From positions 62,001 to 126,000 of the forward strand of contig NW_014575399.1 of NCBI RefSeq assembly GCF_000803265.1: a DNA stretch of 64,000 nucleotides, written 5' to 3'. The notes below the pieces were generated by a model that ran no database searches, was not told where the DNA came from, and saw only the letters and a list, made by a program, of their open reading frames with translations. Shown here piece by piece: positions 9,782 to 63,937 of this stretch; positions within the stretch are counted from its first letter, which is position 1, and the number at the start of each line of letters is the position of its first letter. The DNA is from Ordospora colligata OC4 (Eukaryota > Microsporidia > Ordosporidae). The position numbers were made by a program, and so were the translations under genes.

Positions 9782-10849
9782 TTACAGCTCCTCAACGTTA
9801 TTGGCAGCCAAGGTATCGAATGTATTTCTTCGGCAGAATAAGATATAAAAAATCGAGCCGATGAAGGAGAATATCAGTAAAGCGGTTAATGGAAGTGCAA
9901 TAAGAACCATTTGAGGACCAACACCAAGAACAAGGCATACTGTAAGTAGCGTGACTAGCATGCTTACATGGGCAGTAAGAACTCGCTTCCAGCCAAGGGC
10001 CTCTTCGTTCTCATCCTCTGATGCAGTTTCAAGGAGTGCAAAGAAATCGTTCTGTGTTCTATCGATTTCAAAGAGGAAGTCATCGTCTGCATCTAACGTG
10101 TTTTTACGGAAATATTCTCTTACCTCTGGCTGCATGAGGAAGTCATCATCAGATGCAAAGTACCTGGCGTTGTATGACACACTTCTATCGGCAGGGGTTG
10201 ACTTTGGGATGGAGATCTGACCTTTCTGTAGTTTTTCTATTACCTCCTTTGGGGAGTTTTTGGATGAGTATGGCTTGTGTGGTGTTTCTCTTGTTTCTGA
10301 TAGATTTGGTGGAGTGTTGAGCTTACCATTGTCGAATATGATGTCTGAAGAACTTGATTTGAATACCTGAGATGATGAGTTTGTGGCTAATTTTCCTGTA
10401 TATGGCTTGATATCAGAAAAGAAGTAGTCGACTAGTGCGCTATCAACATCCAATGGAATAACCTTGTAATAGTAAACCTGGCCAAGGATGTACATGTTGT
10501 TAAGAGGGTTTCTGACTTTCATTCTGTGCAGCAATCTTCTGTCTGACTCGAACCTGAATAGTATCCTATTTAGCTCTGATGCAGCATAATAGAAGTTGTA
10601 GAGGATGTTTTGGTCCTCTGGATCTGGAGTGGTTACTCTTGCGATTATTAAGTCTTTGTTCTTGGTCCTGCAGTCTAGTACAAGTGCCTTGAACTCTTCG
10701 AGTGTGAATGTCTCAATGGTATTTGCATCCAAGACGTCAAGCTCGCCAGGCTGGGCAGACTGGAAGTCTTCTGGGCATCCGATGATTCTGATTATTGAGG
10801 AGATGCCTTTGGACTTTTCGTAGACATCGGGAGCTTCTGCTGTTGCCAT
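9782..10849 (-). CDS. Two-TM membrane protein, paralogue of the gene at 17304
   Basis: This protein (355 residues from the ATG at 10849; an ATG at 10897 would add 16) has a conserved N-terminal module with IETFTLEEFKALVLDC, ARVTTPDPED, ASELNRILF and HRMKVRNPLNNMYI. A low-complexity Ser-rich linker follows, then a short conserved block (ARYFASDDDFL...VREYF), and two C-terminal membrane helices at about residues 283-345. Each block is shared with the product of 17304-18152. The ELNRILF...KNPLNN pattern is faintly like a cysteine-less RING/U-box, but I do not assign a function. No CCC motif is evident at the start. Confidence 0.7.
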   Translation of the reverse strand: MATAEAPDVYEKSKGISSIIRIIGCPEDFQSAQPGELDVLDANTIETFTLEEFKALVLDCRTKNKDLIIARVTTPDPEDQNILYNFYYAASELNRILFRFESDRRLLHRMKVRNPLNNMYILGQVYYYKVIPLDVDSALVDYFFSDIKPYTGKLATNSSSQVFKSSSSDIIFDNGKLNTPPNLSETRETPHKPYSSKNSPKEVIEKLQKGQISIPKSTPADRSVSYNARYFASDDDFLMQPEVREYFRKNTLDADDDFLFEIDRTQNDFFALLETASEDENEEALGWKRVLTAHVSMLVTLLTVCLVLGVGPQMVLIALPLTALLIFSFIGSIFYILFCRRNTFDTLAANNVEEL

Positions 10850-17303: not shown

Positions 17304-18152
17304 ATGGAGGAATGCCTGGTACAAGCAGCTATGAGAGCTCGCTCAGAAATTGCATTTGAGTGCAATATCAAAGACGCATGCATACAGCCTTACTGCAAAG
17401 TGCTTGATACCGATGCGATTGAGGCATTTACATTGGAAAAGTTCAAGACACTCATGATATTATGCATGAAAGAAGAAAAGGACTTTGTTATTGCAATGGT
17501 GACAACGAGGGATCCGTCTACTGACAACCCATTCTACAGTTATTATTCTGCAATAGATCTGAATAACTTTCTTTTCTGTGTGGAAGGTGGATATCTGATG
17601 AACAGGATGGGTGTTAAGAATCCAGCAAACAACCTGAGTATTACAGAAAAGGTTTTATATTATAGAATATTGCATAAAGAGTTGTTGGGGATATGGAAAG
17701 ATTATTGCTCAAGATATGATCGAGATTCTGTTGCAAAAGATCATGAGATAGTGTACATCAAGGCAGAGTATTTTGCATACTATGAAGACTTTCTGTTTGA
17801 CTCATCTGTGAGACAGTACTTCTCTTCTAATTCTGATGGAAACGAATGTTTCACACATGGATTCAGTTCGACTGGAGACTCATTAACAATTGTTGATGAC
17901 CAACTTGAGAATTATCATGATGACAAGTTCAGCCTGAAGATCATTTTATACACCAACATGGGCACAATCCTTGCGATATTCACAATATGCATGCTTGTTG
18001 GAAGTAGAGAGGTCCTGATGACTGTACTTGCACCACTCCTACTCACAATGTTCTTCTCAGTTATCTTCCTTGTTCTTTATGTCTTACTATTTGAGACGCC
18101 AGAGTGCCTTGAATCAATCCTAAATCTTGGGAAGCGCTGTCTTTCTGAATAG
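17304..18152 (+). CDS. Two-TM membrane protein, paralogue of the gene at 9782
   Basis: This 282-residue protein shares with the gene at 9782-10849 the blocks IEAFTLEKFKTLMILC, AMVTTRDPS, AIDLNNFLF and NRMGVKNPANNLSI. It also shares EYFAYYEDFLFDSSVRQYF and two C-terminal membrane helices (about 212-265). It lacks the long Ser-rich linker of the other copy. The C-terminus after the last helix is short and charged. The function is unknown. The pair lies in opposite orientations about 6.5 kb apart. Confidence 0.7.
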   Translation: MEECLVQAAMRARSEIAFECNIKDACIQPYCKVLDTDAIEAFTLEKFKTLMILCMKEEKDFVIAMVTTRDPSTDNPFYSYYSAIDLNNFLFCVEGGYLMNRMGVKNPANNLSITEKVLYYRILHKELLGIWKDYCSRYDRDSVAKDHEIVYIKAEYFAYYEDFLFDSSVRQYFSSNSDGNECFTHGFSSTGDSLTIVDDQLENYHDDKFSLKIILYTNMGTILAIFTICMLVGSREVLMTVLAPLLLTMFFSVIFLVLYVLLFETPECLESILNLGKRCLSE

Positions 18153-31136: not shown

Positions 31137-32102
31137 ATGCAACAGGATGAGGTTGTGCAGCAGATTGAAAGCAGATTGAAATTCTTGAGATTGAATGTTA
31201 GCAAGGAGGTTGCAAATGAAGTGCTCAAGATGTTTTTGAAGAAGAGCAAAAACAAGTCTGAGAATGTTGATGTCTTTGTCGATAGCCTAGTTGAGAGTGG
31301 GACTCTGAACACGTTGCAGTTAGATTATGAAGCAAGCAATGAGATAAAAAATGATGGGCAATGGAGGAGATCAAGACGGAATGCTGTATATTCAGAGAAA
31401 ATAACACCAGAGACGTTTAAACTCAAGAACTATCCAAAAGATGATGCAACAGTGCGGTTCTTGAAAGAAATCCTTGTTGCAGATATACCTTTTGGGTTTA
31501 TGAATCCTGAGCAGAAGAGAAGGTTGATAGAGTCTATGGAGCTTATGGATGTACAAAAAGGAACAGTTGTGACGCAGGAAGGAGCACTTGGATCAGAGAT
31601 GCATATTATTGAGAGTGGGGTTTTTGAGGTTAGCAAGGATGGAGAAGTTCTACGTAGACTTTACAGAGGAAACTTCTTTGGGGAAATAGCGCTTCTACAT
31701 AACATTTCAAGGACAGCGACTGTTAAAGCGATTACTGATGGAAAGGTGTGGGTGGTTGAGCAAACATCGTTTTCAGGGATTCGGATGATGGACAGGATTG
31801 CCAACAAGAAGGTTATTATTGAAGGGCTACGGGAGAATGGAATGTTTGGAGTAGCTGGAGATGATGATGAGACTGTATTGAACAGGGTAAGCTTTGTGCA
31901 TTATAAGAATGGAAGCAAGGTTGAGATAGGAGATTCTGAGTTTTTAATGATTGTAAGTGAGGGAGAGATTGATGATGGGGAAACAAGAAAGGTTTCACCT
32001 AAGGAGGTGCTGCGTGTAGGATTTATAGCAGTAACTGAGATTGAGGTGGCGCACATTCCTGAACTATGTGAAGACGAGAGTATAGGGAATAATGAAGAGT
32101 AA
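31137..32102 (+). CDS. BCY1: cAMP-dependent protein kinase regulatory subunit
   Basis: This 321-residue protein has a short helical N-terminus and an inhibitory pseudosubstrate RRSRRNAV (77-84, Ala at the phospho-site). Its first cAMP-binding domain has an intact phosphate-binding cassette, FGEIALL...SRTATV (181-196, including Glu183 and Arg192). The second domain (about 235-310) lacks any FGE.ALL/R.A cassette and is short, so it probably cannot bind cAMP. The yeast protein has 416 residues. The ATG follows GCCCTTACTGAAG. Confidence 0.92.
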   Translation: MQQDEVVQQIESRLKFLRLNVSKEVANEVLKMFLKKSKNKSENVDVFVDSLVESGTLNTLQLDYEASNEIKNDGQWRRSRRNAVYSEKITPETFKLKNYPKDDATVRFLKEILVADIPFGFMNPEQKRRLIESMELMDVQKGTVVTQEGALGSEMHIIESGVFEVSKDGEVLRRLYRGNFFGEIALLHNISRTATVKAITDGKVWVVEQTSFSGIRMMDRIANKKVIIEGLRENGMFGVAGDDDETVLNRVSFVHYKNGSKVEIGDSEFLMIVSEGEIDDGETRKVSPKEVLRVGFIAVTEIEVAHIPELCEDESIGNNEE

Positions 32103-33167: not shown

Positions 33168-34082
33168 CTACATCCAACACCTATCAAGTATAATCCTTCC
33201 GTACGGAGTTTCCTGCACTGGTCTAATTATCCCTTCACTGCTCAACTCAAGTATCTTCAAAAACATCCTTGCCTTCATCCTGTTATTCCATTCACTCACA
33301 TGGCTATTGAAATCAGCTCCAGATGCAAAAAGTGAAAGCCATTCGCTCTCTGCTTCCACCTCAGATTCGCTCACTTCAAAAACAGTTGATGAGCCTCTCA
33401 TTTGCTCAGCCGTTAGCGTCGATGAGTTACGCATTTGCTCAATTGAACTCAACGTTGCCGAGCTCAACATCGGTGCTTCACTCTCCTCAATCTCAAGTAC
33501 CTGTCTTTCACACACCATCCTCATCATCTCATTCACAACAAACACATCTCGTCCTCCAAACATCCTCATGTCCACTTCAAGCGGTATCTTTGTTCCTATG
33601 GTACTTCTGCCATACCAATCACTCAAGTCAAGCTCTGTTTCAATGTCAATGGCTCTTTTCTTCGGTTTCCATTCTATTCCACTCTCAACACGCTCCTCAT
33701 ACGCCTCATTGCTGCTAAACATCAAACTCTCGCCATTCCATTCAATATCAGCCTCAAAATCACACATTGTCGTCACATACTCATCTTCCATCGGTAGCAT
33801 ATTCCGGTTCTTCTTTCCAGGTACTATCCTTCTAATCTGCTTTTTGGTATCCATCATACTCAACAGCATTCCAACTCTCTCCAATTGTTGTCTCACATCC
33901 TTGATATACATCCTAACCACTTCCCTGAGCGCCAAACTGCATTCTTCAATACTGCACTTGTTTCCAAGCTTCAAAACCATCTCCATCACATTTGCTACAT
34001 CGACTCTTTTCCTCATACTACTCCATTTTCCATTAATAAAAGTATTCCATCTCCTATGAACCTCATCCTCTAAACATCTCAT
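33168..34082 (-). CDS. Divergent kleisin of the Scc1/Rad21/Rec8 type
   Basis: This 304-residue protein looks like a shortened cohesin kleisin. Near the N-terminus VDVANVMEMVLKL...SLALREVVRMYIKDVRQQLERV matches the Smc3-binding helical part (usually LLLGVVRIYS.K...L). At the C-terminus KARMFLKILELSSEGIIRPVQETPYGRIIL matches the Smc1-binding winged helix (...L..L......QE.PYG.I). The middle is acidic/Ser-rich. It is about half the length of yeast Scc1. Cohesin ring closure is the inferred role. The start is not supported by a CCC motif. Confidence 0.6.
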   Translation of the reverse strand: MRCLEDEVHRRWNTFINGKWSSMRKRVDVANVMEMVLKLGNKCSIEECSLALREVVRMYIKDVRQQLERVGMLLSMMDTKKQIRRIVPGKKNRNMLPMEDEYVTTMCDFEADIEWNGESLMFSSNEAYEERVESGIEWKPKKRAIDIETELDLSDWYGRSTIGTKIPLEVDMRMFGGRDVFVVNEMMRMVCERQVLEIEESEAPMLSSATLSSIEQMRNSSTLTAEQMRGSSTVFEVSESEVEAESEWLSLFASGADFNSHVSEWNNRMKARMFLKILELSSEGIIRPVQETPYGRIILDRCWM

Positions 34083-34119: not shown

Positions 34120-35001
34120 CTACACACTATCTTTGCATAAACAACCTGCTCTTCCATACCTGCTTATAGATTCGGCCAGCTCATTTGCATCAAAAGGCGC
34201 CATAAAAACCTCAGCTACATCACTACTCCCAATACTCAGGTATTCATCCCTGAATCCTTCATCAACAGCCAAGATAATCGGCACATCTTTGCTTGCATCC
34301 CGAATACGGCATACCAGCACTCCATAATAAGCAGAAACTACATGCATCACTACCACATTATATCCCCATCTCATAACACTCTCAATCCCACACTTCCCAT
34401 CAACAACTGTCAACGCATATCCAGGACTCCTCAAGGCTTCCACAAAACACTCAGGCATACTCCCTGTTTCTCTAATACACAGCACATTCACTCTGGCTGT
34501 CACGCCCTGCCTCTCGCAATAAATAGCTCTCTTCAATTCGTTTATATCTTCAACAACCTCCCTTAGATACTTAGAAATGCTTCGGATCGAGCTTAGAACA
34601 TGTGACTGGTAAACAATGCTGCTCTCAATCTGCTTTGGTCGAGAATCCTCCCCAGCTCCCATCTCGCTCGGAGCTTTCTTCCTTCGGATTTTGCTCAGCA
34701 AATCAGGCCTTCCACGCTGGAAATACCTATTCTTGTACTCCCATGGTGTCCATACAGATCCCATACACTTTACTGCATCGTTCTTGATCTTATAAAAATC
34801 ATACTTGTTCAGCTGTCTCACAAAAGAGCTCCAGTTTTTATGCTTGAAGTGCCTCTCAAGAATAACCTCAGAAAACTCCTCCTGGCTGCCTATCACAAAA
34901 CTCTTTCCATCTGCACTCCATGAAATATACCTGAAGTTTGCTGGATCCTCCACCATCCTGAATAGCTTCTCAACAAACTCAGATCCAGAACCTTGACCCA
35001 T
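34120..35001 (-). CDS. SKN7-like transcription factor: HSF DNA-binding domain plus degenerate receiver
   Basis: This 293-residue protein starts with a clear HSF-type DNA-binding domain (about 8-75: FVEKLFRMVEDPANFRYISW, then HFKHKNWSSFVRQLNKYDFYKI). A helical linker (about 125-165) follows. Residues 170-283 follow a two-component receiver fold: VNVLCIRE, GYALTVVDGKCGIESV, YNVVVMHVVSAYYG, PIILAVD, VFMAPFDANELAESISRYG. The phospho-Asp position is His220, the acidic pocket residues are missing, and the Lys before P-F is Ala. This is the fungal SKN7/Prr1 domain order. The ATG at 35001 is preferred over a GTG start. Confidence 0.75.
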   Translation of the reverse strand: MGQGSGSEFVEKLFRMVEDPANFRYISWSADGKSFVIGSQEEFSEVILERHFKHKNWSSFVRQLNKYDFYKIKNDAVKCMGSVWTPWEYKNRYFQRGRPDLLSKIRRKKAPSEMGAGEDSRPKQIESSIVYQSHVLSSIRSISKYLREVVEDINELKRAIYCERQGVTARVNVLCIRETGSMPECFVEALRSPGYALTVVDGKCGIESVMRWGYNVVVMHVVSAYYGVLVCRIRDASKDVPIILAVDEGFRDEYLSIGSSDVAEVFMAPFDANELAESISRYGRAGCLCKDSV

Positions 35002-35116: not shown

Positions 35117-35803
35117 TTACTCTCCCTTCTTGAAATACAATCTCCCTTCCCTGATCGTTACATCTCGCTTCAACTCATCAGCACCAATACGCAGTCTGAA
35201 AACTGTGTTTCGTCGGTTCAGCTGATGTCTGGATCGCCTTGCATTCTTATGCTCCCTACTCTCGGCATACATCGAGTTGATATATCTCTGTTGGTAATAG
35301 AGCAGCAATTCGCACACAAGAGATTCATTCGTATCGCAAGACTTTACATCTTCTACTGTTTCCTTCAACAACTGCAACACTGCGTCAATCTCTTCGTTAT
35401 CTTTAATCTCATTCGTATGCATAAACATCATGTCTTCATACAAATGAGATCCAAACAAATGGTATGGCAAAAGACACTCATATGCGTGGTTGATATTCAA
35501 GAATCTTCGGAGATCGGGCTTTTCAATCTGTGCCAAGTCCTTCTGCAGAAACCCAATTACTTTCTGTCTATGCGTTTGTGCATGCTTATAAAAGTTTCCA
35601 TACAACATTCCTGGGCCTCGTGCACATCTTCTATCAGCCACTTCGCTTTCTATGCTTCTCTCAGCATGCTCCTTGATTTCTTCAAACTGTGCTTCTTCAA
35701 CATTCGCTGTTGCTATTCTTGCCCCTTCGTCTTGCCCTCCAACAACGGACTCGCCAGAATTACCCACGCTAAGCTCATGCCCATCAAGCATGTCTTCATC
35801 CAT
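35117..35803 (-). CDS. GLTSCR1/BICRA-domain-like protein
   Basis: This 228-residue protein contains FLNINHAYECLLPYHLFGSHLYED (about 105-128), which resembles the GLTSCR1 core in which DA..RLLPYH.F is diagnostic. It is followed by a helical stretch (DAVLQLLKETVEDVKS, LLLYYQQRYINSMY). In animals that domain defines the non-canonical BAF chromatin-remodelling complex. The N-terminus is acidic and the C-terminus basic. The start follows AGCCTGAA. The match is short, so this is tentative. It is divergent from PHF5A by 35 bp. Confidence 0.45.
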   Translation of the reverse strand: MDEDMLDGHELSVGNSGESVVGGQDEGARIATANVEEAQFEEIKEHAERSIESEVADRRCARGPGMLYGNFYKHAQTHRQKVIGFLQKDLAQIEKPDLRRFLNINHAYECLLPYHLFGSHLYEDMMFMHTNEIKDNEEIDAVLQLLKETVEDVKSCDTNESLVCELLLYYQQRYINSMYAESREHKNARRSRHQLNRRNTVFRLRIGADELKRDVTIREGRLYFKKGE

Positions 35804-42326: not shown

Positions 42327-43295
42327 ATGGATGCACAAAACCAGATCAAAAGAAACCTGAAGAACAACTACATCCTGATAGAGTTCCTTATGTTTGTGAC
42401 AAGGACAGTTGTTTTGGCTTTTGCTATCCACGAAAATCCCTACTTGTCGATTACAAAAGGAATACAAGGTGCATGGATAAACACAATCTTCATTGACATC
42501 ACAAACATCTTCCAGTTTATATTCATATTTGATGTGATTCAGCGTGAAAACATATTCCAGATGCTATTGTACATTCCGATAATCATGTATGCAATGCTGA
42601 TCATACTTGCAACAATTCTTAATGCAGAGATTATTGAATTCAAGACTGGGGCTGTGAACGGCAGGGCAAGGTTTTTGTATGCGTACACAGGCATTCTTGC
42701 GTTTGAGATCTTGATTCACATCCCTGTGTATAAGAAGCTAAAGGCAGGCTTTATGTGGTCGAACTTCAAGAAGATAGGTGCAGACCCAAAAATGAATGGT
42801 AAGTTAAAACATATAATTTATAGAAGCCTTCCAAAGAAGAGAGGAATTGAATGCAATCAAGAAGCTTACAATTGTGTTTGTGTGCTCAGAAGTTCTTGGA
42901 ATATATTTCAACAAGGTTGATATGATCTTGTTCAAGCAGATTAGCCTTGGTATTATTTTTATAGTGATGATGCCTTTTCAGAATGACGAATATGTGGCGC
43001 ACCGGATTGTTTTTCTGATACTTTCTGGAATTTTCTTTGTGGGTGGGATAGTGAGTCTAGCGCTTGATATAGTGCATTTCTTTGTTAACAACGTTACAAA
43101 ACTGTAAGTTAAATACTTAATTTTAGAGAATCAATTGTGGACTCGTTGTTTTACATGTTCATCATGTTTTTGTTGTTTATTGGTGGGTTTCGAGATTACA
43201 AGATGTTTGGAAGTGGACTGAAGGAGTATTACAATGGGATTACTACAAGTTCAAGGAAGAAACTGATTTTGGAAAAAGAGCACGATTTTGAATAA
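42327..43295 (+). CDS. Seven/eight-TM membrane protein encoded in three exons
   Basis: Exons 42327-42798, 42824-43103 and 43127-43295 join to 306 codons plus stop. Exon 1 carries four membrane helices and FKKIGADPKMN; exon 2 continues NEAFQRREELNAIKKL and adds about three more; exon 3 adds the last helix and MFGSGLKEYYNG. Each open frame ends or shifts exactly at a GTAAGT...TAG element, and removing both elements (25 and 23 bases) restores one frame. From memory, the IGADP loop and the late GLK motif resemble an uncharacterised fungal multipass family. The function is unknown. Confidence 0.8.
42799..42823 (+). other. Spliceosomal intron 1 (25 bases)
   Basis: It starts GTAAGTTAAAA and ends ATATAATTTATAG. 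The 5' GTAAGT and a TAAT-type branch close to the 3' TAG match the short-intron class of microsporidia. Its length (25, remainder 1) is exactly the frame change between the flanking open frames. Confidence 0.85.
43104..43126 (+). other. Spliceosomal intron 2 (23 bases)
   Basis: It starts GTAAGTTAAAT and ends TACTTAATTTTAG. Without splicing the frame stops at the intron's first TAA. Splicing leads into 169 bases of exon 3 in frame. It shares the first ten bases with intron 1 and has a TTAAT branch-like element fused to the 3' site. Confidence 0.82.
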
Positions 43296-43631
43296 AATTA
43301 CCATGCATGTATTTATTTTGTTCAGTGTGCTTTTTCATGTATTATACTCACTCATGTATATTTATGCATTACTCATTCATTGTATAATGATTATGCATCA
43401 CTCATTCATGTTACTTATGTATTACATGTAATGTATATGCACTTAATCACGCACATCCTTATGTAACATAGCACACTCCCACACTCATACTTCCACATTC
43501 ACTACTATAGCACACACTCATACTTCCACATTCACTACTATAGCACACACTCATACTTCCACATTCACTACTATAGCACACACTCATACTTCCACATTCA
43601 CTACTATAGCACACACTCATGCATCCACGCA
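43296..43631. other. Gene-free part of the left arm
   Basis: These 336 bp between the three-exon gene and RPS25 hold ATGTAT/ACTCAT-rich sequence, a near-palindrome around TATTACATGTAATGTA (about 43421-43436), and the 33-bp minisatellite. No gene is seen. Confidence 0.6.
43480..43626. repeat. 33-bp minisatellite, left copy
   Basis: Four head-to-tail units of 33 bp (43480-43512, 43513-43545, 43546-43578, 43579-43611; each begins CACACTCATACTTCC) are followed by a partial unit. They appear identical. They lie just 3' of RPS25 and outside any coding frame. Confidence 0.92.
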
Positions 43632-44003
43632 CTACACTGCTTCTGACACCACTTCCACACTCGCCACTGCATTCACGCTCTCCTTCTCCTTCACTGCCGC
43701 ATAAACCGTTATCCGCGGATTCCCTCGCACCTTCTCAATCACTCCCTCCATGCACAGGTGCCTCAACACATTCTCCGCAACTCCAAGATTCAGATTGTGT
43801 CGCGACCCAACAGAAAACCGTGTCACCATTCTCGCTCGCACCACTTCCTTGCGCACCTTTCCAAGCAGCTCCTCGGACACAGTCACTATCTTGCGCACAT
43901 CCTCCTTCTTCTTTGCTTCTCCCCACTTCTTCTTGTCCTTTCGTGTTCCAGACGCTGCCTTCAATGCCTTCTTCTCCTTGGACTCCTGAGACTTCTTGAC
44001 CAT
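43632..44003 (-). CDS. RPS25: 40S ribosomal protein S25 (eS25), left copy
   Basis: This 123-residue protein has a Lys-rich N-terminus (MVKKSQESKEKKALK, KDKKKWGEAKKKE). A winged-helix core follows with LGKVRKEVVRARMVTRFSVGSRHNLNLGVAENVLRHLCMEGVIEKV, as in eS25. The C-terminus is extended by an Ala/Val/Ser tail. The ATG at 44003 follows AGCCCAA; the open frame to 44036 adds 11 residues upstream. It is identical to the copy at 45641. Both copies are transcribed away from the 1.4-kb spacer. Confidence 0.93.
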   Translation of the reverse strand: MVKKSQESKEKKALKAASGTRKDKKKWGEAKKKEDVRKIVTVSEELLGKVRKEVVRARMVTRFSVGSRHNLNLGVAENVLRHLCMEGVIEKVRGNPRITVYAAVKEKESVNAVASVEVVSEAV

Positions 44004-44005
44004 TT

Positions 44006-44020
44006 GGGCTGTCAAAATTT
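44006..44020 (-). promoter_or_regulatory. AAATTTT-CCC start signal of left RPS25
   Basis: On the minus strand AAATTTTGACAGCCC ends two bases before the ATG. It is the mirror of 45624-45638. Confidence 0.5.
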
Positions 44021-44272
44021 GCTGCAAATATTCCACGCTCTTAAATACATCACATGATACACATAATATAATAACACATAATATTCTCTACTGCATAAAA
44101 TATAACACATAATATAATAATAGATCCTTATTATCTAATACTCATAATATAACATCATATCCTAAATATTCACATCATAAAATAACGCAATAACTCATGC
44201 ATTCTAACACCATTCAATTAATATATCAAAAACCTTATCTTTAATCATCTAGTTAATCAGCAAGCTCCTAAA

Positions 44273-45471: not shown

Positions 45472-45623
45472 GTATGCAGAAATGCATGAGTTCTATTATT
45501 TTATATTGCACTACTGGGCTATTGTATTATATTATGTGTTATATTTTATGCAGTAGAGAATATTATGTGTTATTATATTATGTGTATCATGTGATGTATT
45601 TAAGAGCGTGGAATATTTGCAGC

Positions 45624-45638
45624 AAATTTTGACAGCCC
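45624..45638 (+). promoter_or_regulatory. AAATTTT-CCC start signal of right RPS25
   Basis: AAATTTTGACAGCCC ends two bases before the ATG at 45641. Confidence 0.5.
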
Positions 45639-45640
45639 AA

Positions 45641-46012
45641 ATGGTCAAGAAGTCTCAGGAGTCCAAGGAGAAGAAGGCATTGAAGGCAGCGTCTGGAACA
45701 CGAAAGGACAAGAAGAAGTGGGGAGAAGCAAAGAAGAAGGAGGATGTGCGCAAGATAGTGACTGTGTCCGAGGAGCTGCTTGGAAAGGTGCGCAAGGAAG
45801 TGGTGCGAGCGAGAATGGTGACACGGTTTTCTGTTGGGTCGCGACACAATCTGAATCTTGGAGTTGCGGAGAATGTGTTGAGGCACCTGTGCATGGAGGG
45901 AGTGATTGAGAAGGTGCGAGGGAATCCGCGGATAACGGTTTATGCGGCAGTGAAGGAGAAGGAGAGCGTGAATGCAGTGGCGAGTGTGGAAGTGGTGTCA
46001 GAAGCAGTGTAG
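45641..46012 (+). CDS. RPS25: 40S ribosomal protein S25 (eS25), right copy
   Basis: This 123-residue protein is identical to the product of 43632-44003. Both the coding sequence and the flanks (116 bp upstream of the start, about 346 bp downstream of the stop) are shared exactly. The duplication is therefore recent or kept uniform by gene conversion. The motif AGCCCAA precedes the ATG. Both copies look intact and should be expressed. Confidence 0.93.
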   Translation: MVKKSQESKEKKALKAASGTRKDKKKWGEAKKKEDVRKIVTVSEELLGKVRKEVVRARMVTRFSVGSRHNLNLGVAENVLRHLCMEGVIEKVRGNPRITVYAAVKEKESVNAVASVEVVSEAV

Positions 46013-46017
46013 TGCGT

Positions 46018-46164
46018 GGATGCATGAGTGTGTGCTATAGTAGTGAATGTGGAAGTATGAGTGTGTGCTATAGTAGTGAATGTGGAAGTATGAGTGTGTG
46101 CTATAGTAGTGAATGTGGAAGTATGAGTGTGTGCTATAGTAGTGAATGTGGAAGTATGAGTGTG
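46018..46164. repeat. 33-bp minisatellite, right copy
   Basis: Four 33-bp units at 46033-46164 and a partial unit next to RPS25, the reverse complement of the left array with the same copy number. Equal copy number in the two arrays argues for recent duplication or conversion. Confidence 0.92.
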
Positions 46165-46420
46165 GGAGTGTGCTATGTTACATAAGGATGTGCGTGATTA
46201 AGTGCATATACATTACATGTAATACATAAGTAACATGAATGAGTGATGCATAATCATTATACAATGAATGAGTAATGCATAAATATACATGAGTGAGTAT
46301 AATACATGAAAAAGCACACTGAACAAAATAAATACATGCATGGTAATTTTATTCAAAAAATATACACGTTTAATGCAAGAGTTGGTTGCAAGTCAGTTAA
46401 ACGGATACAAATATTTTATC

Positions 46421-62486: not shown

Positions 62487-63233
62487 ATGTATTATGATGT
62501 GAATGTGAGTGAAGATTATTGTACAGATGAAGTGAAAGGGCTTGAGGAAAGCGAATATCAGGGATTTTGTGTTTGTAAGAAAGTGAAGGCAGGTGAGTTT
62601 AATCGACTGTTATGGAAACCGAAGGATCTTGGAGTTAAGAATGGATGGTATAGTAGGATTGAGTTGGAGTTTGCTGAAGGAGAGGCAATCAACTATGATC
62701 AGAAGAAGGCGATGAAGAGTGATGTGTTTGTAGTAAGGATTGGAGGAGCTGAAGGGCTTGACAAGCTGATAAAGCTGCAGCCTGACATGATTAGTTTTGA
62801 TTATTCAAGCCCGGTGCTTCGACTGAAGTCTGGATTGGTAAAAACAGCAATGAAGGAGAATATTTTTTTTGAGATTCCAATAAGGGAGGGACTTTATGGA
62901 GTTGAGCAGAAGGTGATGTGGATGAGGAATGTGCGTAAACTGCTTTTTGTTACGAAGGGAAAGAATGTGGTTGTGAGTAGTGGAGCAAAGAGGCTGAGTG
63001 AGTTGAAAAGAGTTAAGGATGTGATTTTGATGTTACAAACGTTTGGATTGAAGAGAAAGCGTGCTGAACAAGTGTTATGCAATTCTAAAAGGCTACTTGA
63101 GCATTGTGCAATGAGAAGGCATTGCCACAAAGGGATGGTTGTGACTAGTGTTGATGATGGAGCATTAAAAAGAGATTTTTTGATGAAGAAGTATGGATGG
63201 TTGATGGATAAAGGAAGAATAAAGGAAGTGTAG
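62487..63233 (+). CDS. RPP1: RNase P/MRP subunit RPP1 (p30), copy A
   Basis: This 248-residue protein has the p30 TIM-barrel pattern: start MYYDVNV, PDMISFDYSSPVLRLKSGLVKTAMKENIFFEIPIREGL, then WMRNVRKLLFVTKGKNVVVSSGAKRLSELKRVKDVILM and a C-terminal helix with CNSKRLLEH. A C-terminal extension of about 35 residues is basic. The ATG at 62487 follows GAGCCCAT; the frame can be read from a GTG at 62469. The next gene, 38 bp downstream, is its diverged paralogue. Confidence 0.88.
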   Translation: MYYDVNVSEDYCTDEVKGLEESEYQGFCVCKKVKAGEFNRLLWKPKDLGVKNGWYSRIELEFAEGEAINYDQKKAMKSDVFVVRIGGAEGLDKLIKLQPDMISFDYSSPVLRLKSGLVKTAMKENIFFEIPIREGLYGVEQKVMWMRNVRKLLFVTKGKNVVVSSGAKRLSELKRVKDVILMLQTFGLKRKRAEQVLCNSKRLLEHCAMRRHCHKGMVVTSVDDGALKRDFLMKKYGWLMDKGRIKEV

Positions 63234-63271: not shown

Positions 63272-63937
63272 ATGTATTTTGATGTGAATGTTGATGGAAG
63301 ATATCCAATTGATGAGGCAAATGCCTTACTAGAGAATGAGTGTGATGGAATGTGTTTTAATAACACAGTTGATGCGAGAGATGTGATGCAGATGAAGCAG
63401 CATGATTTATTGGTGTTAGAAGGCAAGCAAGTGTTCAGAAGAGTTGAAATAAGGTACTCTAGAGTTGATGAGCTACCTAGTATGGAAGTGGTGGAAGCGA
63501 TCCGTAGGACAATGAAGTGCATAGTTGCGGTGTTAATGAATGAATCGAGAGATTTTGAAGCGATTATGCGAATTGAACCTGACATTATTGCATTTGACTT
63601 TTCTAAGAGGATCTGTTTTCCAGACAAGATGGTTGAGGAAGCAGCGAAGAAGAATATTTTTTTTGAACTGCGGATTGCGGAAGGGCTGTATATGAAGAAA
63701 GAAAAGACAATATGGATGAGGAATATTAGGAAGCTTCTTGCGATTACAAAAGGTGTTAATGTTATAGTTTCTAGTGGAGCAGCATGCAATACGGAGGTAA
63801 AGAGACCGTTTGAGTTTGTGAGTGTGTTGCAAGGGGTTGGTGTAGATGAGAGTTGTGCAAGACGGGTGTTGATGAACTCGGCAAGAATGTTGAGGTCGTG
63901 TAAGTACCTGATATGTGGTGAAACAAGGATGAGATGA
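63272..63937 (+). CDS. RNase P/MRP subunit RPP1 (p30), copy B
   Basis: This 221-residue protein is a second p30 barrel: start MYFDVNVDG, PDIIAFDFSKRICFPDKMVEEAAKKNIFFELRIAEGL, WMRNIRKLLAITKGVNVIVSSGAACNTEVKRPFEFV and NSARMLRSC. It is clearly paralogous to copy A but differs at most positions outside these blocks and lacks the C-terminal extension. The ATG at 63272 follows TTCCCTGTTCTG. Both copies look functional. Confidence 0.85.
   Translation: MYFDVNVDGRYPIDEANALLENECDGMCFNNTVDARDVMQMKQHDLLVLEGKQVFRRVEIRYSRVDELPSMEVVEAIRRTMKCIVAVLMNESRDFEAIMRIEPDIIAFDFSKRICFPDKMVEEAAKKNIFFELRIAEGLYMKKEKTIWMRNIRKLLAITKGVNVIVSSGAACNTEVKRPFEFVSVLQGVGVDESCARRVLMNSARMLRSCKYLICGETRMR

Follow-up and report, generated by a model that had tools for sequence, protein, structure and literature searches.

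The receiver domain of yeast Skn7 is reported to be required for the role of this transcription factor in oxidative stress, whereas phosphorylation of its aspartate is not (PMC8510515), and this role is accompanied by Ser/Thr phosphorylation (PMC3871606). The cysteine at the position termed DD+17 has been put forward as a redox residue of SKN7 (PMC8510515), and Ser/Thr at D+10, also scored as a column in our alignment, is linked to oxidative signalling in yeast. Rim15 apart, a 2021 survey of fungal receivers put the atypical ones at about 3%, and its main text mentions neither Nematocida nor Encephalitozoon (PMC8510515). Here we describe a gene of the microsporidian Ordospora colligata OC4, located in a stretch of 64,000 nucleotides of contig NW_014575399.1 (positions 62,001 to 126,000, hereafter the window), which encodes an SKN7-like protein with a receiver domain that lacks the phosphorylatable aspartate.

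That microsporidia have SKN7-like receiver proteins and lack histidine kinases has already been stated in published reports (PMC6531884, PMC4965123; for the kinases also PMC5285503). No account of the lost phospho-Asp in microsporidian SKN7 was found in the open-licence literature searched, supplements excluded, which is no proof of novelty.

Architecture and predicted fold of the protein

The gene occupies 34120..35001 on the reverse strand, as do all its features below, and was assigned to an SKN7-like transcription factor with a pseudo-receiver from the open reading frame, Pfam and the orthologue. The boundaries of the reading frame are exact, with the start codon ATG at 35001, a stop codon TAG that ends at 34120 and a product of 293 amino acids. 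Residues 9–108 (34678..34977) form an HSF-type DNA-binding domain (PF00447, 2.8e-32), for which the top PDB match was Skn7 of Chaetomium thermophilum (1.7e-25), as compared to 2.4e-19 for human HSF2; judged by these matches, the domain is closer to Skn7 than to HSF. It is followed by a predicted long helix, a linker or possible coiled coil, at residues 121–168 (34498..34641), which is 98% identical to the Ordospora pajunii protein over residues 121–166. The remainder is a degenerate receiver domain at residues 170–285 (34147..34494), identified from models, profile matches and hhalign. The order of HSF domain, helical linker and receiver, as in SKN7/Prr1, had been proposed in an initial annotation of the sequence and was borne out by the Pfam match, the model and the profile comparison.

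The AlphaFold2 model of the full-length protein displayed a helix at residues 121–168 and, over residues 171–290, five strands and five helices arranged as in a receiver. Its mean predicted local distance difference test score (pLDDT) was 78.8 and its predicted template modelling score (pTM) 0.44, so the placement of the domains is unreliable. The receiver was modelled separately because the 50 matches shown from the Foldseek search with the full-length model were all HSF-type domains. This second model, built on 54 sequences, had a pLDDT of 89.5 and a pTM of 0.85 and displayed the same order of elements. The C-terminal domain is predicted to retain the (beta-alpha)5 receiver fold, the order of which was present in both models, as the initial annotation had expected of structure prediction.

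Structural alignment alone cannot separate receivers from other flavodoxin-like domains: a decarboxylase wing and B12-binding domains tie, and the Foldseek search with the receiver model ranked a B12-binding domain second and also listed fusions of G-protein-coupled receptors with flavodoxin. The families are, however, separated by sequence. A search of the PDB with the single domain matched the receivers of MtrA (1.1e-4), RegX3 (0.0022) and ArlR (0.011), and a profile of 12 relatives, over its positions 163–282, matched response regulators with a best value of 5.4e-11. Among the 60 chains shown of 144, the C-terminal matches carried the names of response regulators, of proteins of the CheY/PhoB type or of histidine kinases; the exceptions were one chain labelled simply as a transcriptional regulator and one de novo protein. 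Another alpha/beta fold was ruled out by these profile matches. Comparison by hhalign of 11 receivers from the Encephalitozoon/Ordospora clade with 66 fungal-type SKN7 receivers gave a probability of 97.8 over 114 columns (83.6% over 90 columns with the two Ordospora sequences only), whereas none of 20 column-shuffled controls exceeded 1.3; a chance resemblance was thereby ruled out. Past the HSF domain, Pfam finds nothing significant in the O. colligata protein, and PF00072 is absent even at E 10, which speaks against a casual identification of the receiver. Two relatives carry a Pfam receiver, namely P0011 (35.9 bits, cut-off 30.2) and P0092 (precomputed annotation). Given the PDB profile matches, the shuffled controls and the Pfam receivers of the relatives, it is extremely improbable that the domain belongs to another flavodoxin-like family; on sequence grounds, it is a receiver by descent. 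Profile comparison, the other check proposed for this domain, thus pointed the same way as the models.

Active-site states and the apparent order of losses

The same fusion of HSF and receiver domains was found in other microsporidia, where a search for it had been recommended. Near full-length relatives include the orthologue from O. pajunii (92% identity) and proteins from Encephalitozoon cuniculi, E. intestinalis and E. hellem (50–54%). We aligned 121 proteins, with relatives taken from the best 120 of 1645 proteins: 66 are fungal-type, 44 microsporidian outside the Encephalitozoon/Ordospora clade and 11 within that clade. The separation into 55 and 66 rows was made by protein length, drawn after the table of pocket residues had been seen, and then checked with trees. 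Of the 54 database proteins assigned to the microsporidia, 23 bear an organism name that was taken as microsporidian, and the other 31 were placed by the tree; for nine of the named proteins the genus or species was looked up, and Encephalitozoon, Edhazardia and Spraguea are microsporidian genera. The fungal-type rows include unnamed proteins. The counts do not include P0093 or P0037, the latter apparently truncated.

The complete set of five canonical pocket residues is present in 65 of 66 fungal-type rows, as compared to none of the 55 microsporidian rows (0/44 outside and 0/11 within the clade). Sixty-five fungal-type rows have Asp at the phosphosite and one has Glu, and both acids, Thr and Lys are present in all 66. 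Microsporidian rows outside the clade mostly have Ser at the phosphosite (39/44), the others having Gly (3/44), Cys (1/44) or Asp (1/44); they keep the first acid (44/44), an acid at the second position (43/44) and Lys (43/44), and Thr/Ser is found in 4/44. Within the clade, the phosphosite is Tyr (9/11) or His (2/11), the first acid is absent (0/11), Glu occupies the second position in seven rows, Lys is replaced by Met (9/11) or Ala (2/11), and Thr by Val (10/11) or Ile (1/11). The residue directly after the Thr position is Gly, Ser or Ala in 66/66 fungal-type rows, whereas it is acidic in 32/44 other microsporidian rows and Asp in 11/11 clade rows, amounting to an acid in 0/66 versus 43/55. 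Cys at DD+17 is present in 66/66 fungal-type rows, 22/44 other microsporidian rows and 4/11 clade rows, and is therefore lost in 29 of the 55. Ser/Thr at D+10, a column beside a gap, was counted in 64/66, 8/44 and 2/11 rows, respectively (10/55 for the microsporidia).

In the O. colligata protein, the alignment places His220 (34342..34344) at the phospho-Asp position, Ala268 (34198..34200) at the conserved Lys position, and Val246 at the Thr position with the new acid Asp247 directly after it (34261..34266). The acidic-pair positions are held by Arg177-Glu178 (34468..34473), and Tyr195 (34417..34419) stands at DD+17. Thus, the phospho-Asp, Thr, Lys and first acid are all missing. The initial annotation was right that the receiver is not phosphorylatable on Asp, with His and Ala at the two positions it had named, whereas its claim that the acidic pocket is lost applies to the first acid, replaced by Arg177, and not to the second, retained as Glu178. 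The phospho-Asp is missing in 54 of the 55 microsporidian rows, so its absence is not peculiar to O. colligata.

A tree was built from 71 rows, comprising all 55 microsporidian and 16 of the 66 fungal-type rows; it holds SKN7-type rows only, and its root was not inferred. The 55 microsporidian rows were separated from the others by a branch with 100% support in the Shimodaira-Hasegawa-like approximate likelihood ratio test (SH-aLRT). The O. colligata protein was located within the 11-row clade (98%), adjoined by P0011 (99%; long branch). State changes on this tree numbered three for the Asp, one for the Lys, one for the first acid, three for the second acid and five for the acid after Thr. The same two groups were obtained from the DNA-binding domain, with a support of only 55%, and from the receiver alone with the five pocket columns masked, with 100%; a long-branch warning applies to both trees.

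The loss apparently took place in two steps, the acceptor Asp going first, early in the history of the microsporidia sampled, and the pocket later in the Encephalitozoon/Ordospora line. The Asp was apparently lost once, mostly to Ser, with the acidic pair and Lys kept at that stage. Only the Encephalitozoon/Ordospora clade has lost the pocket beyond the Asp, and P0011 holds a middle position: this protein keeps two acids, whereas Cys replaces the phospho-Asp and Glu the Lys, residues that mark it as an intermediate state between the two microsporidian groups. Rozella, Mitosporidium, Paramicrosporidium and Nosema contributed no protein by name among the matches listed, which makes the placing of the Asp loss approximate. 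With so few changes (three versus five), and with both the Asp and the acid present in P0137, the co-occurrence of Asp loss and the acid after Thr does not count as a series of independent events.

Some single rows deserve mention. P0137, the sole microsporidian row with a phosphosite Asp (1/55), lies within a clade of Ser/Gly rows and has Ala at the Thr position; its Asp is possibly a reversal. The only fungal-type row without the Asp, P0199 (Prr1 of Schizosaccharomyces cryophilus), has Glu, and P0205 (S. osmophilus) has Asp. P0129, named from Hamiltosporidium tvaerminnensis, is SKN7-like with a Pfam receiver, contrary to the statement that this species has neither HSF-like gene (PMC6531884).

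Phosphorelay genes and genomic surroundings

We searched the genome, 2,279,121 bases in 13 contigs, for the components of a phosphorelay. HisKA and HPt gave zero matches at E 10. The receiver profile also gave zero matches at this threshold; as it misses the degenerate SKN7-like domain too, this result concerns recognisable receivers only. Four matches to HATPase_c were obtained, and these were topoisomerase II, MLH1-type, HSP90 and MutL-type proteins. Thus, there is no detectable gene in this genome for a histidine kinase or HPt input to the SKN7-like protein, in line with the initial annotation, in which this search had been proposed.

The genome contains a second HSF-type gene (L002:1456-2196, contig C4), which encodes 246 amino acids and has no Pfam receiver. 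Together with the SKN7-like gene, it recalls the pair of SKN7-like and HMS2-like genes in Nosema ceranae. Because microsporidia are reported to be without a classical HSF (PMC6531884), the SKN7-like protein and an HMS2-like partner are candidates for the remaining stress regulation.

The SKN7-like gene is flanked by a Rad21/Rec8-like gene (33168-34082) and a gene for a protein of 228 amino acids (35117-35803) with a sub-threshold GLTSCR1 match; all three are on the same strand. A few genes away, 31137-32102 encodes a protein with a cyclic-nucleotide-binding domain (2.5e-17), possibly a regulatory subunit of protein kinase A. Elsewhere in the window, 43286-44119 and 45525-46358 form an inverted repeat of 834 nucleotides with arms that are 100% complementary and 1405 nucleotides apart, each arm carrying an identical gene for ribosomal protein S25 of 123 amino acids. 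At 62487-63233 and 63272-63937, two neighbouring genes give matches to RNase P subunit p30 (4e-34 and 1.2e-24, respectively) and are tandem diverged copies. Finally, 9782-10849 and 17304-18152 are DUF5092 paralogues (1.2e-51 and 1.7e-29) on opposite strands.

Possible role of the receiver and comparison with known systems

On balance, we consider it probable that the receiver keeps its fold and works without phosphate as an oligomerisation or partner-binding module, after an old loss in two steps. Precedents for such a module are yeast Skn7, with its receiver-dependent oxidative role that does not call for Asp phosphorylation (PMC8510515), and bacterial pseudo-receivers that form dimers in the unphosphorylated state (PMC12632262). 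The protein derives from a response regulator and is an SKN7-like transcription factor of the microsporidia. By family resemblance, its HSF-type domain would bind DNA and its long helix would hold the subunits together, whereas the receiver, without phosphate, would stabilise the oligomer or hold a partner protein. Control would be exerted via protein level or partners and not via a phosphorelay, the Asp having been lost before the pocket was dismantled in the Encephalitozoon/Ordospora line. No DNA target is proposed, given that heat shock element (HSE)-like sites amounted to one match with one mismatch at the HSP90 locus (1.12 expected) and two exact matches in the 64-kb window (0.78 expected).

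Several observations weigh against this reading. Averaged over pairs within the 11-row clade, identity is 0.42 for the receiver versus 0.75 for the DNA-binding domain and 0.69 for the linker, and between the two Ordospora species the corresponding identities are 86%, 97% and 98%. The proposed redox Cys has become Tyr195 and the Ser/Thr at D+10 is mostly lost in microsporidia, which means that the phosphate-independent inputs known for yeast Skn7 are not conserved either. The two-step history is weakened by the uninferred root, the 55% support from the DNA-binding domain and the unsampled early branches. In addition, Table 1 of a 2015 survey lists histidine kinase and response regulator domains in one of two microsporidia, and HPt in neither (PMC4558063). 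Because the receiver diverges faster and has lost the residues of the yeast phosphate-independent inputs, a decaying relic is the main rival and has to be taken seriously, although we hold it to be rather unlikely: in the Encephalitozoon/Ordospora line, a receiver without a task would drift within the limits of folding, the function being carried by the DNA-binding domain and the helix. The missing pocket residues and DD+17 Cys suit a relic, as does the finding that His220 and its neighbours differ even between the two Ordospora species. However, the receiver is full length in 11/11 clade members (proteins of 285–299 amino acids) despite a compact genome and has a good predicted fold, Asp247 is invariant in 11/11 rows, and the core is conserved, with 18 receiver columns identical in at least 10 of 11 rows.

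The substitutions themselves allow two further explanations. The change from Asp to mostly Ser and from Thr to mostly Val, Ile, Ala or Gly, with a new acid after the Thr position, might have relocated the charge and made the microsporidian SKN7 receiver a permanently "on" module, which we regard as unlikely. The new acid could in that case replace the phosphoryl group beside the kept Lys, the regulator would have been frozen in an active-like state when the phosphorelay went, and the Lys would have been given up later, only in the Encephalitozoon/Ordospora line. A new covalent or ligand switch is quite unlikely: here the Ser, Tyr or His at the phosphosite would be modified by an ordinary eukaryotic kinase, or would bind a metal or ligand. 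The prevalence of Ser (39/44) and Tyr (9/11) and the retention of the acidic pair and Lys where Ser occurs are consistent with such a switch, but no single modification fits His in the O. colligata protein and P0010, Gly in three rows and Cys in one.

These comparisons suggest the order of events by which a response regulator persists in a eukaryotic lineage whose kinases are gone: apparently the acceptor goes first and then the pocket, while the DNA-binding domain, the helix and the fold stay. On this basis, the role of the SKN7 receiver when Asp phosphorylation is impossible, which is a standing question, can also be addressed in laboratory yeast.

A published microsporidian counterpart is NCER_101594 of N. 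ceranae, reported as SKN7-like with the same architecture by authors who also noted the missing SLN1 (PMC6531884). That paper is silent on the phosphosite in its main text, where "aspart" and "phosphorylat" occur 0 times, and the protein itself is not among the relatives listed here. Aspartate-less receivers (ALR) and pseudo-receivers (PsR) such as RitR, ChxR and FrzS likewise have a receiver fold without a phosphorylatable Asp; they are frequently linked to a DNA-binding domain, and some of the bacterial ones are reported to dimerise unphosphorylated (PMC4395418, PMC12632262, PMC5965902). The O. colligata domain shares their features in its predicted receiver fold and descent and in the replacement of the phospho-Asp by His220. 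At the Asp site of ALR, basic residues together make up 4% and Phe/Tyr occur in 23 sequences, so His and Tyr are rare (PMC4395418). Such receivers are best studied in bacteria, whereas the output of the O. colligata protein is an HSF domain and a phosphorelay is undetectable. With fungal SKN7 and fission yeast Prr1, the protein shares the order of HSF domain, helix and C-terminal receiver; unlike them, it has no phospho-Asp, Thr, Lys or first acid and no detectable phosphorelay, and with 293 amino acids it is shorter than the 66 fungal-type proteins (321–631 amino acids).
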